This document shows, one piece after another, positions 13,694 through 23,465 of a stretch of DNA of 34,666 nt. The notes under the pieces were generated by a model. It had not been told where the DNA came from, did not search any database, and saw only the letters and a program-made list of their open reading frames with translations. The translations under genes were made by a program, and so were the position numbers. This DNA is from a virus. Location: positions 1 to 34,666 of the IMG/VR virus record IMGVR_UViG_3300030104_003365; one strand, given 5' to 3'. Numbering within the stretch: position 1 is the first letter of the stretch; each line of letters begins with the position of its first letter.

Positions 13694-14383
13694 ATGAATA
13701 TAAAAGATAAATACAAGGTAGAATCAATAGATTCCAAAGAGACCGATGAGTGGTTGTTGCATAAACATTATTTAAAAAGACTTGTGTCTATCTCTTATTC
13801 TTTTGGATTGTTTAAACATAATGAATTGGTCGGTGTCTGCACTTATGGAAATGCTCTACCATCAACAATGAGGCGAGGTTTTTGTGGATTAAAATATGAG
13901 GATATCGTATACGAGCTAAACAGATTATGTGTAAACGAGGGATTAGATAAAAATGTTTTAAGTCATTTTGTATCGAAAACATTTACACTAATTCCAAAGC
14001 CAAAAATACTAGTTAGCTATGCTGATAAAAACGTAGGCCATGTTGGATATATCTATCAAGCTACTAATTGGCTATTTACTGGAGAATCTCACACTCAATT
14101 AGATTGGAAGGTTAAAGGTAAAGAGCATATTCATAGTAGAACGCTGATGGACGAATTTTCTTACGAGAAAGATAGGATAAAAAAACTTAAGGAAAAATAT
14201 GGCGATGATTTATATCAAGCAGAAAGAATACCAAAAAATAGATATGTATATTTCATTGGAACTAGAAAGCAGAAAAAAGAAATGTTAAAAAGTTTAAAAT
14301 ATGAAATAAAACCTTACCCTAAAGGTAAAAACAAAAGATACGACGCTAGCTATAAACCTCAAGTACAAACAAAATTATTCTAA
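13694..14383 (+). CDS. mom: Mom-like DNA adenine modification protein
   Basis: A 229-residue protein of the Mom family (GNAT fold). Mom converts adenine in phage DNA to N6-carbamoylmethyladenine, giving resistance to many host restriction enzymes. Seen: DEWLLHKHYLKR (18-29), LVGVCTYGNALPS (45-57), a characteristic ELNRLCVNEGLDKNVLSHFV (74-93), and ILVSYADKNVGHVGYIYQAT (105-124) followed by NWLFTG, the conserved GNAT core. The basic C-terminus (PYPKGKNKRYDASYKP) suits DNA binding. It is the last gene of a rightward operon ended by a strong terminator. Mu controls mom by Dam and Com; here no Com is evident. Confidence 0.85.
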   Translation: MNIKDKYKVESIDSKETDEWLLHKHYLKRLVSISYSFGLFKHNELVGVCTYGNALPSTMRRGFCGLKYEDIVYELNRLCVNEGLDKNVLSHFVSKTFTLIPKPKILVSYADKNVGHVGYIYQATNWLFTGESHTQLDWKVKGKEHIHSRTLMDEFSYEKDRIKKLKEKYGDDLYQAERIPKNRYVYFIGTRKQKKEMLKSLKYEIKPYPKGKNKRYDASYKPQVQTKLF

Positions 14384-20248: not shown

Positions 20249-20265
20249 TTAATCTCCTAGTAATG

Positions 20266-20358
20266 GAGCGGTGTCAAAACCGAAGGACATAAAGGTCGCA
20301 CATGATGCGAAATGGGAACCTCCGGGGATGCGGTTACCCTAACATCTCTCCACCGCTC
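20266..20358 (-). ncRNA. Folded RNA element A
   Basis: A 93-base element between the RHH-like and nuclease genes. GAGCGGTG (20266-20273) and CACCGCTC (20351-20358) form 8 perfect pairs. On the leftward RNA: GAUG/CAUC with a 12-base loop UUAGGGUAACCG, then UCGCA, loop UCAUG, UGCGA, then the closing strand. GGUUCCC after the first hairpin can pair with GGGUAACC in that loop, making a pseudoknot or an alternative stem. The nuclease RBS follows 9 bases after the element. No tRNA: T- and D-arm consensus fail. No known riboswitch is recognised. Confidence 0.6.
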
Positions 20359-20363
20359 TAAAA

Positions 20364-20522
20364 TTATTTATAATCTTCCATAAACTCTATTAATACTTGT
20401 CTAATAGTCTTGCCCTTCATTTTAACCATACCAGCAAAATGTCTGTATATATTTTTAGGAACGTTCTTTAAAAGATAACTACTCCCACTATCGCTTTTAA
20501 TTTGTTCTATATTGTCTACCAT
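20364..20522 (-). CDS. Small ribbon-helix-helix-like protein
   Basis: A 52-residue reading frame with AGGAG before ATG 20522, overlapping the end of the amidotransferase gene. The pattern SSYLLKNVPKNIYRHF (14-29) then KMKGKTIRQVLIEFMEDYK fits a beta strand followed by two helices as in Arc/MetJ ribbon-helix-helix DNA-binding proteins. It may regulate this cassette or the early operon. Family call is tentative. Confidence 0.55.
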   Translation of the reverse strand: MVDNIEQIKSDSGSSYLLKNVPKNIYRHFAGMVKMKGKTIRQVLIEFMEDYK

Positions 20523-21286
20523 AAAGATAAACTCCTCTCATTGTATGATGGGCCATTAAATCCAATCTCTCTCTGGCTTAAAGTTAGCTCATCGGTGTTA
20601 AATGTATATAGTGTGTTTTCGTTTGTAATGCATTCATGATACGGCATTCTTATCTCCGATAAAATATAAGATAATTTACTAGCATAGTATAGCACATCAT
20701 TTTCTAAACAATATACCATCTCTAGCGGGTTGTTGCCCTTTAAAACGTATATTTTCTTTGGATTGCTTACATCATACCAGACAGATGTAATCTTGCCCAT
20801 AAAATGCGGTAATACATTATCTGCAAAATCATTAACATTAGGTGTCTCGTTTAATAATCTGAACAATACCTCTGAGTCAACATCTGCAAACTTTTCTACG
20901 TCATACTTTTTTACCAACTCTTCATCATTCCATATAGAACCATTATGAGTACCTATAATCTTACCGGCCCTAATAGGATGGTTGTTAGAGTTTACTTTTG
21001 GACTACCTTTAGTAGCATATCTAGTATGGCCCAGAATTGCAGTAGTATTAGAATCTACGTCCGCCATTATAGTTTTATGCATTGATGTCTTAACTAAAGA
21101 ATCTGCTGAGGTTGCACGTTTAAACAAATCATAACTATTATCGCTATTTATCTTAACGTAACCAGTAGCATGTCGCCCTCGCTTTTGAGCATTAACAAGT
21201 ATACGTCCAAACGTACTGGCTATATCTTGCCTCTGCGCGTCAGTTCTTTTTTTATTACTTATAATTACACCAGCCAGACCGCACAT
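20516..21286 (-). CDS. Class-II glutamine amidotransferase
   Basis: A 256-residue N-terminal-nucleophile amidotransferase. The start is put at ATG 21286, giving MCGLAG with Cys2 as nucleophile after Met removal; it overlaps the upstream stop (TAATG) with GGAGG in range. Seen: RGRHATGY (36-43), GHTRYAT (86-92), NHP (102-104), GTHNGSI (112-118), DSEVLF. These bind glutamine and release ammonia. It lacks the synthetase domain of purF, asnB or glmS, so it must supply ammonia or glutamyl groups to a partner, probably the amidoligase encoded divergently. Confidence 0.9.
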   Translation of the reverse strand: MCGLAGVIISNKKRTDAQRQDIASTFGRILVNAQKRGRHATGYVKINSDNSYDLFKRATSADSLVKTSMHKTIMADVDSNTTAILGHTRYATKGSPKVNSNNHPIRAGKIIGTHNGSIWNDEELVKKYDVEKFADVDSEVLFRLLNETPNVNDFADNVLPHFMGKITSVWYDVSNPKKIYVLKGNNPLEMVYCLENDVLYYASKLSYILSEIRMPYHECITNENTLYTFNTDELTLSQREIGFNGPSYNERSLSLW

Positions 21287-21711
21287 TATATCTTCCTCCA
21301 CTTTTGCACATGGTGGAACGTATCGAACCTATCTGTAAGAACGTCAGCAGATTTCTCTAAACATTTCTCTGGGTGATGCTCTATTAACAAATATACCCAA
21401 GCCGTATGGATTACCATAGATGGTTGAGATAAAGTAAAAAAGTCTAACTCGTCTCTATTATAAAACATCCCATTTGACTCCAGCATATCCATATGCCTTA
21501 GAGCTTTATCGTCCACCTCATATAGCTCACCATGAACTCTATTAATAAACTCTGGACGTCTTACTACGCCCGGAAAACCTCCAAACGATATCATCTGGAA
21601 ATCACTATCTTTTGTGACGGCCTCACCAATAAACGTAGAGTTTTCTATAATACGATGATTACCAAAACCCTTTTTAAGTGAACCATAAACAAACACTTTA
21701 TGCTTATTCAT
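21286..21711 (-). CDS. Gamma-glutamylcyclotransferase-like protein
   Basis: A 141-residue GGCT/AIG2-type protein. Seen: VFVYGSLKKG (6-15), the substrate-loop motif YGSL; FGGFPGVVRR (43-52); VHGELYEVDDKALRHMDMLE (59-78) with catalytic-position Glu78, followed by YNRDEL. Members release 5-oxoproline from gamma-glutamyl amines or, like BtrG, trim gamma-glutamyl tags. It is translationally coupled to the amidotransferase and divergent from the amidoligase. AAAGGAG precedes ATG. Confidence 0.85.
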   Translation of the reverse strand: MNKHKVFVYGSLKKGFGNHRIIENSTFIGEAVTKDSDFQMISFGGFPGVVRRPEFINRVHGELYEVDDKALRHMDMLESNGMFYNRDELDFFTLSQPSMVIHTAWVYLLIEHHPEKCLEKSADVLTDRFDTFHHVQKWRKI

Positions 21712-21970
21712 ATATTATCTCCTTTATGTTTACTAGTAGTATAATATGGCTAATTAATATAATGCAAGTATTTTTTTTAAATTAACAAAAAAAGATAAAA
21801 ATACGTACTTTTAGCCTAATTTGTTAGGGTGTGTACGTGGTGTATATTGTGTATTCTCCTCGGTGAGCAAAAAAAAATATAAAAGAAAGTACGATAATGC
21901 TTGCATCGTATTATATTTATTATCTATATTATAATCGTTGGCAAGACAAATAAAATAAAGGGTTAAAAAA
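21712..21970. promoter_or_regulatory. Divergent promoter region between GGCT and amidoligase genes
   Basis: Leftward: TTGCAT (21762-21767 on the minus strand), 18-base spacer, TATACT (21738-21743). Rightward: TTGCAT (21901-21906), 18-base spacer, TATATT (21925-21930). AAAGTACGA (21886-21894) lies just before the rightward -35, and its near-copy AAAGTACGT (21803-21811, minus strand) lies upstream of the leftward promoter. The 259-base gap contains no credible gene. Two equal promoters back to back suit coordinated expression of the cassette. Confidence 0.55.
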
Positions 21971-22981
21971 ATGGGAAGAATAAAAGACACAAGCAAGTTA
22001 AAAAGTTTTAATGAGAGAGCGTTTGGAATAGAAATAGAGTTTGTATCTAAAGAGCACAAGAACGCAGTTGCTACTTTAATAGAATCTAGAGCTAACGCTC
22101 TTCTTCCAGAGGACAACCAAGTAGAGGTTGTTTCTGAAGGTTATAACCACAACACATCATCTTACTGGAAAATAGTTACTGACTCTTCTGTTTATCCTAA
22201 TAGAGCTCAAAGAAATAATGGCTACTTAGATAGAGGCCTTGAGTTAGTTTCTCCAATAATTAAAGGTGAGGCTGGAGTTGCTCAAATAGAGGCTATATTA
22301 ACTGCTATGAATCAAGATAATTTATGTGCAATTAATAAGAGTTGTGGATTTCACGTTCACCATGACATCAGAACTTGGAGGGATGGTGTTCGCTCTAGCA
22401 GTGTTGAAGAGAATGAGGCTAGCATAAACAATCTTACTAACTTAATAACTTTAGTGTCTAAGTTTGAGGATGTTATTTATGGTATGTTACCAGCATCAAG
22501 AAAAAATGGTTCTTGGTGTCAGCCAGTTAATCATCGATTCGATAACGTATTCCAAGCTATGAACGGCAAGTCTTTAGAAAAAAGAGCTAAAAAAGTTAGC
22601 TACCTTAAAAATGGTTTTAAAAATCATTCTAGCGCTACATTCTGGCAGAATAGCAGATATGCTGGTTTGAATACTATGAACTTTTTTAAGTATGGTGCGG
22701 TTGAGTTTCGATATGGCTCTCCTACTCTTAATGCTGAAAAAATGATAAACTGGATTGTTTTCACTCAGTGCTTTGTTAACATGGCTGAGACTTTCAAAAC
22801 TATTAACTCTCATAGTGAGATGAAATTATCTACTAAGAGAGAGGTTGATTTGACTTTTGATAAAATGAGAGATACTCTTGGTTTGTCTAGAAGGTTATGC
22901 AGAGATGACCGCCAGAGAGCTTGCGCTTTGTGGATAAGAAAAAGATTCAACCACTTTAACCCAGACCTATTACTTTTTTAA
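21971..22981 (+). CDS. Amidoligase (COOH-NH2 ligase)
   Basis: A 336-residue protein of the amidoligase family (Amidoligase_2; glutamine-synthetase/ATP-grasp-like COOH-NH2 ligase). Seen: FGIEIEF (18-24), WKIVTDSSV (66-74), ELVSPIIKG (91-99), CGFHVHHD (125-132) and EFRYGSPTLN (245-254), the conserved acidic and His motifs for ATP/Mg and substrate. Such enzymes join a carboxyl and an amine, often on peptides or proteins. Known bacterial and phage gene sets pair them with GGCT-like and class-II amidotransferase genes, as here. Length is typical. Ends in a strong terminator. Confidence 0.9.
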   Translation: MGRIKDTSKLKSFNERAFGIEIEFVSKEHKNAVATLIESRANALLPEDNQVEVVSEGYNHNTSSYWKIVTDSSVYPNRAQRNNGYLDRGLELVSPIIKGEAGVAQIEAILTAMNQDNLCAINKSCGFHVHHDIRTWRDGVRSSSVEENEASINNLTNLITLVSKFEDVIYGMLPASRKNGSWCQPVNHRFDNVFQAMNGKSLEKRAKKVSYLKNGFKNHSSATFWQNSRYAGLNTMNFFKYGAVEFRYGSPTLNAEKMINWIVFTQCFVNMAETFKTINSHSEMKLSTKREVDLTFDKMRDTLGLSRRLCRDDRQRACALWIRKRFNHFNPDLLLF

Positions 22982-23016: not shown

Positions 23017-23045
23017 AAAGGCCCCAGTCCCGGGGCCTTTTTTTT
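23017..23045 (+). terminator. Rho-independent terminator after the amidoligase
   Basis: AAAGGCCCC (23017-23025), loop AGTCCC, GGGGCCTTT (23032-23040) with more T. A second, weaker hairpin (CCTAG 22988-22992 with CTAGG 23006-23010) lies before it. On the minus strand the stem is again followed by T-rich sequence from the AAA run, so it may terminate the leftward tail operon as well. Confidence 0.85.
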
Positions 23046-23049
23046 ATCC

Positions 23050-23178
23050 TCATTTTTTCGCGTATCTTCTACCAGTTAAGCCTCTACTAGATTTAACCTT
23101 ATTTCCGCCCTTTTTGGAACGTTTTTTACCTTTCTTTAACTTTACACCTTTTCTTTTATAACCTTTCATTTTAGGCAT
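23050..23178 (-). CDS. Tiny, highly basic protein
   Basis: A 42-residue reading frame with AAGGGG before ATG 23178 and a stop just before the terminator. It is more than one-third Lys/Arg (KGYKRKGVKLKKGKKRSKK, ending TGRRYAKK) and Gly-containing, with no hydrophobic core. Such proteins are expected to bind nucleic acid or to be packaged with DNA. It is the last gene of the leftward tail operon, following another basic protein. Confidence 0.6.
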   Translation of the reverse strand: MPKMKGYKRKGVKLKKGKKRSKKGGNKVKSSRGLTGRRYAKK

Positions 23179-23207
23179 ATTTTACCCCTTATATTTGATT
23201 TTATTAA

Positions 23208-23465
23208 TTACCATGCTTTGCAAGACCAGTATCTGGCCTTAGTTTTTGGTCCGGGATTTGAGCAGTTATGTCTAGCTCTAAATGATTTTCTCCTAGCCGG
23301 ACTTGATTTTTTTATTCGCATATTTGGGTCACCGAATGTCACGCGTTTAACCCTAGAACCAGCTTTTACGTAAACTTGTGATTTTTTTCTACCATATCCC
23401 GGTTGACCTTTTCTTATTCTGGTCGGTTTATTCAGCTTAACCGACTTGCCTTTATATGTAGCCAT
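23208..23465 (-). CDS. Small basic protein with RARHNC/ARYWSCKxW motif
   Basis: An 85-residue protein. The N-terminal part is basic and Gly-rich; the C-terminus has RRKSFRARHNC and KTKARYWSCKAW, a short Cys/His/Trp motif I have seen recur at the ends of small basic proteins in phages and large algal viruses; function is unknown. The two Cys and the His may hold a metal. AAAGGAG precedes ATG 23465, with AAAGTACGA (23479-23487) immediately upstream. Confidence 0.65.
   Translation of the reverse strand: MATYKGKSVKLNKPTRIRKGQPGYGRKKSQVYVKAGSRVKRVTFGDPNMRIKKSSPARRKSFRARHNCSNPGPKTKARYWSCKAW

Follow-up and report, generated by a model that had tools for sequence, protein, structure and literature searches.

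Analysis of a 34,666-nucleotide stretch of viral DNA (the window) revealed a set of three amide-bond enzyme genes, coding for an amidoligase, a glutamine amidotransferase (GATase) and a gamma-glutamyl cyclotransferase (GGCT), which is a real conserved phage module and no chance meeting of genes. We consider it probable (about 0.6) that this cassette acts as a three-gene amide-bond module through a glutamine/glutamate chemistry, and the genes found beside it in relatives hint at phage DNA as a possible target. The window covers most of a 36,909-base (36.9 kb) IMG/VR record of an uncultivated virus, which is a tailed phage as judged by its genes for the major head protein, large terminase and tape measure. 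As claimed in an earlier note on this DNA, three intact genes for a class-II GATase, a GGACT-type GGCT and an Amidoligase_2 protein lie within 20516-22981; all three open reading frames are in place and their profile matches exceed the cut-offs. The features of the region are as follows.

13694..14383, plus strand: Mom-family DNA modification gene, outside the operon and given for context (PF25680, 4.5e-40)
20364..20522, minus strand: 52-aa ORF (ORF list and Shine-Dalgarno (SD) site; ribbon-helix-helix look judged by eye)
20516..21286, minus strand: stand-alone class-II glutamine amidotransferase (GATase_6, 256 aa, N-terminal Cys after Met; PF13522, residues, AF2 model)
21286..21711, minus strand: GGACT/GGCT-type gamma-glutamyl(amine) cyclotransferase (141 aa; PF06094, YGSL motif, Glu78, sequence relatives)
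21738..21767, minus strand: promoter-like site TTGCAT-N18-TATACT for GGCT-GATase
21901..21930, plus strand: promoter-like site TTGCAT-N18-TATATT for the amidoligase
21971..22981, plus strand: Amidoligase_2 (336 aa), GCS/GS-fold ATP-dependent ligase (PF12224, residues, AF2 model)
23017..23040, plus strand: intrinsic terminator, 9-bp stem and T run, 3' of the amidoligase

The amidoligase diverges from the GGCT-GATase pair and is followed by the strong terminator at 23017-23040, and the minus-strand block runs in the order GGCT, GATase, 52-aa ORF, exonuclease and replication genes. The GGCT stop and the GATase ATG share one base (TAATG), and because of this overlap the two genes are translationally coupled. 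The GATase most likely starts at this ATG at 21286 (MCGLAG..., SD GGAGG) and not at the listed upstream GTG at 21301. The 52-aa ORF overlaps the 3' end of the GATase gene by 7 nt and thereby extends the operon; it matched no Pfam or NCBIfam family and, by eye only, looks like a small ribbon-helix-helix protein. Rfam and ARAGORN gave no match anywhere in the window, and PADLOC recognized no defence family among the four operon-region proteins. A non-coding element of 100 nt (20262-20360, minus strand) separates the exonuclease gene from the 52-aa ORF; it folds with -38.2 kcal/mol (z -3.0 versus shuffles) and an 8-bp closing stem, and corresponds to neither a tRNA nor an Rfam family. Two small Lys/Arg-rich proteins of 42 and 85 aa are encoded at 23050-23465 on the minus strand, the larger of which matches PHROG 7595 (function unknown). 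As possible substrates they were discarded, since the amidoligase-free locus L260 also encodes a small basic protein that resembles them by eye.

Inside the 259-bp intergenic region, two exact TTGCAT-N18-TATANT sites point apart. Matched promoters had been proposed here previously, and both sites are indeed real and rare: the exact motif occurs three times in the whole window versus 0.14 expected under a Markov model, a ratio to be read with the motif having been chosen after the sites were seen. Their likeness to sigma-70 promoters is weak, with TTGCAT agreeing with the -35 box in three of six positions, and a generic promoter consensus scan of the window listed neither site. Hence, they possibly represent a phage promoter type, as candidates only.

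The family assignments of the three proteins are supported by profiles, residues and, for two of them, structural models. The amidoligase matched PF12224 with 118 bits (E=6e-34; cut-off 22), and its residues E21, E23, W66, K67, D71, E91, H128, H130, R177, R229, N234, E245 and R247 are kept in 82-91 of 91 homologues; E21, E23, E91, H128, H130, R177, N234, E245 and R247, all present in the window, are near-invariant over the 91 amidoligases. Its AF2 model (pLDDT 89.4) adopts the GCS/GS fold, with YbdK and gamma-glutamylcysteine synthetase as best matches and PafA close (Z 11.5-12.6, rmsd 4.3-4.6, 232-261 residues aligned). The fold is common to these enzymes and the modelled amidoligase, but sequence identity is only 8-16%, and a profile search of the amidoligase against sequences of solved structures returned no match. 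The GATase matched PF13522 with 64.7 bits (E=1.1e-17; cut-off 27) and conserves Cys2, Arg89, Asn115-Gly116 and Asp137 in 38-40 of 40 homologues. Its AF2 model (pLDDT 88.6) is nearest to the glutaminase domains of PurF and GlmS (Z 25, rmsd 2.8-3.3); EgtC was also among the structural matches, less near (Z 20.6), and the match to the EgtC profile TIGR03442 stays far below its cut-off (24.5 bits against 218.65; 1.5e-5). For the GGCT, the match to PF06094 reached 77.5 bits (E=1.6e-21; cut-off 22.8), the YGSL motif is kept, and Tyr9-Gly10 and Glu78 occur in 60 of 61 homologues. Its nearest solved relatives by sequence are YtfP (1xhs, 2e-9) and GGACT/A2LD1 (1vkb, 3jub). Since its closest relative is the GGCT of L013, a phage of another kind, the window GGCT may have an origin distinct from that of the amidoligase and GATase. 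Catalytic residues, whose loss in homologues the earlier note had named as evidence against its proposal, are thus kept in all three families, and the structure modelling suggested there gave confident amidoligase and GATase models.

No close relative emerged from single-protein scans of viral contigs with the amidoligase and GATase of the window. A codon pattern built on a conserved motif, CGxHVHHD, collected 101 IMG/VR stretches, 90 of which encode an amidoligase. GGCT was located nearby in 50 of these 90 loci and GATase in 36, versus 0 and 1, respectively, of 120 control IMG/VR loci that were picked by a DNA-polymerase motif unrelated to the module. At a stricter cut-off, the strand of the amidoligase was shared in 35/35 GATase and 47/47 GGCT loci. 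The same triple, sought in related phages as had been suggested, was found 25 times; 18 of these triples are contiguous on a single strand in one order, amidoligase>GATase>GGCT. GATase and GGCT are moreover fused in one reading frame in three loci (L005:6735-7631, L056:880-1617 and L118:1551-2288) and in phage C75C1. Some loci lack GGCT and others hold the amidoligase alone, partly because loci were cut short. The window itself departs from this layout in that its amidoligase is opposite in strand to its partners, unlike the 47 co-directional relatives. Among bacterial genomes, the CGxHVHHD pattern gave 116 matches, 11 of them with an amidoligase and none with all three genes; therefore, the set is regarded as mainly a phage module and is not treated as a host pathway.

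The earlier note referred to comparative studies that describe such amide-bond gene sets, and the phage literature does describe them (PMC5498523, PMC11945000, PMC3890496, PMC10580990). For LUZ24/phiEco32-type phages, a cassette with a putative role in 'peptidoglycan modification' has already been published (PMC5498523, PMC11945000), which lowers the novelty that the earlier note implied. OM43 phages carry an amidoligase with a GATase (PMC10580990), and Arthrobacter phages an amidoligase with an AIG2-like protein (PMC5513430). In our analysis, the Arthrobacter phages Shrooms, Ottawa and relatives encode all three genes in a row, with GGCT directly upstream of the amidoligase-GATase pair; the families are those of the window, but the order is GGCT>amidoligase>GATase on one strand and the amidoligase is about 32% identical. 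Phage C75C1 has the same three activities, but the GATase domain in its fusion belongs to another subfamily (weak GATase_4 match). The module of LUZ24/phiEco32/RIO-1/HP1-type phages comprises GGCT, GATase, a COOH-NH2 ligase, Amidoligase_2 and an ATP-grasp protein, of which it has in common with the window GGCT, the class-II GATase with N-terminal Cys and Amidoligase_2, near replication genes. Contrary to this longer form, the window yielded no COOH-NH2 ligase (PF14395-type) with a local profile from five phage proteins and no ATP-grasp ligase with one from four; its GATase is free of the long C-terminal extension, and its amidoligase shares only 14-19% identity with the LUZ24/phiEco32/RIO-1/HP1-type proteins and branches elsewhere in the tree. 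The window cassette is likely a shorter, three-gene form of the known module, on which our literature search found no enzyme assay of any member.

The chemistry that we infer for the cassette, including the order of reactions, would start with the GATase hydrolysing glutamine to glutamate and ammonia. The amidoligase would use ATP to activate a carboxylate and join it to ammonia or to an acceptor amine; by analogy with other ligases of the GCS/GS fold, this carboxylate is most likely the gamma group of glutamate. The GGCT may then remove or edit a gamma-glutamyl group as 5-oxoproline, which would render glutamyl transfer transient, proof-read or trimmed. The step from fold to chemistry draws on what is well established for the GS/GCS, class-II GATase and GGCT families. 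The earlier note had the GATase feeding ammonia or glutamyl groups; the modelled PurF/GlmS-like glutaminase fold (Z 25) fits the release of ammonia. The opposite strand of the window amidoligase and the absence of GGCT from some loci speak against the three proteins acting as one unit. The module is probably expressed early, GGCT and GATase being the first genes of the replication/recombination block.

As for the acceptor, the leading candidate, although a tentative one, is phage DNA with a modified base or sugar. The module might add or amidate an amino-acid-like group on 5-hydroxymethyl or glycosylated cytosine, or work beside Mom, and so serve in counter-restriction. Such a role is conceivable and compatible with the proposed glutamine/glutamate chemistry. 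Phage DNA was missing from the earlier list of targets, and the genomic context of relatives is the only new hint on the target. L053 and a clade of related phages (24 rows) group with the window, and the terminase, portal and head genes that they have in common are 28-37% identical. Within this clade the neighbour of the operon is swapped, with several swaps on the tree, between TAGT (10 rows), a thymidylate-synthase-like protein (5 rows) and a C5-methyltransferase (4 rows), three non-homologous pyrimidine-modification genes. The thymidylate-synthase-like enzyme carries the motif FTYDAPW, in which an Asp takes the place of the Asn of thymidylate synthase; we take this Asp to be the dCMP-type residue found in dCMP hydroxymethylases. 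In a second, distant clade (L067, L023, L079 and phage Ottawa, whose TET match is below cut-off), the amidoligase occurs together with TET and a P-loop nucleotide kinase (PF18751). The operon thus stands beside swapped DNA-modification genes in the lineage of the window and beside TET and a P-loop kinase in the second clade, an association that is new. Records with an amidoligase contained TAGT in 11/50, TET in 4/~97 and the kinase in 4/50 cases versus none above cut-off in 50 controls, the counts being phylogenetically non-independent. The window also carries a Mom gene, 62% identical to Mom of its lineage relatives L247 and L248. Phage DNA decorated with amides, and thereby able to evade restriction, is a possible, if tentative, outcome, in which the modified cytosine could derive from TET and kinase, from a dCMP-hydroxymethylase-like enzyme, or from C5-methyltransferase and TAGT in the relatives, and would in the window phage stand beside Mom-modified adenine.

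Two further observations were made in these loci. In L067:2311-5206, P-loop nucleotide kinase3, TET_JBP and the amidoligase directly follow one another and make up a candidate operon for DNA hypermodification. In the closest relative, a peptide deformylase with a C-terminal SEC-C motif (L053:12526-13071) lies near the amidoligase-GATase pair.

Several points weigh against DNA as the target. Mom lies 6 kb from the operon in the window and is the sole such gene of its record, in which TAGT, TET_JBP, P-loop kinase3, the thymidylate-synthase-like gene and C5-methyltransferase were looked for and not found; the close relative L053 likewise has no TAGT, TET, kinase, thymidylate-synthase-like gene or C5-methyltransferase. 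At the same spot before TerS, terminase relatives that lack the operon likewise encode TAGT, Mom, ParB-methylase, C5-methyltransferase or aGPT-Pplase3. Across L239-L263, which represent one phage lineage, TAGT, Mom, ParB-N6 methylase, C5-methyltransferase and aGPT-Pplase3 with a kinase replace each other there. The spot is a DNA-modification hotspot, and therefore co-location need not mean co-function with the operon. A Fisher test on TAGT, thymidylate-synthase-like and C5-methyltransferase genes (operon-bearing 20/24 versus operon-less 1/12, p=2e-5) was set aside as misleading, as Pfam shows TAGT, Mom, ParB-methylase and aGPT-Pplase3 in operon-less loci. To our knowledge, no DNA modification has been described in LUZ24-type phages, the bearers of the longer module. 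Hence, the coupling between the operon and DNA-modification genes is suggestive, and we place a DNA target, still as a tentative option, at or a little above the rank of the published assignment to the wall.

According to that assignment, the enzymes introduce unusual peptide links into peptidoglycan or another surface polymer, with a predicted block of superinfection. It has been put forward for phiEco32/LUZ24-type phages (PMC5498523; PMC11945000; PMC10580990). Among the recurrent neighbours, none was recognizable as an envelope enzyme, a transporter or a secreted partner, and the module genes sit with replication genes. The module is moreover present in phages of both Gram-positive and Gram-negative hosts, whose walls differ, and the COOH-NH2 ligase and ATP-grasp protein of the longer form are missing in the window. 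In the part of the literature available to us, the envelope proposal is said to go back to Iyer et al. 2009 and Hardies et al. 2013. Modification of the cell envelope is somewhat doubtful, as is an envelope component as the acceptor.

Known enzymes of all three folds act on gamma-glutamyl groups, so that the cassette might instead make or drain a gamma-glutamyl metabolite during infection, for instance glutathione-like thiols or gamma-glutamyl amines. This is consistent with the match of the amidoligase fold to YbdK and GCS and with the presence of EgtC, a gamma-glutamyl amidase, in the structural list of the GATase, together with the weak EgtC profile match far below cut-off. The GATase is nevertheless nearer to PurF/GlmS than to EgtC, and no genes of thiol or amine metabolism were recognized beside the set in relatives. 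We therefore regard small-metabolite chemistry as rather unlikely, and a small metabolite as an improbable acceptor; a protein acceptor is judged unlikely to the same degree. That the three genes are unlinked accessories gathered in a hotspot, as loci with one or two of them and the divergent layout of the window might suggest, is highly improbable in view of the near-zero control rates, constant order, overlapping starts and stops and GATase-GGCT fusions.

Phage amidoligase modules are widespread, and their guessed role in the cell wall and against superinfection has stood for more than 10 years with no test found in the literature available to us. The neighbours in the closest relatives of the window phage hint that the three-gene amide-bond module may act on bases of the phage genome itself and not on the host cell wall. 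If DNA is the target, amide ligation would join the known base hypermodifications and a long-open annotation would become directly testable. If the wall hypothesis is true, the minimal three-gene form described here would be the simplest set to assay.
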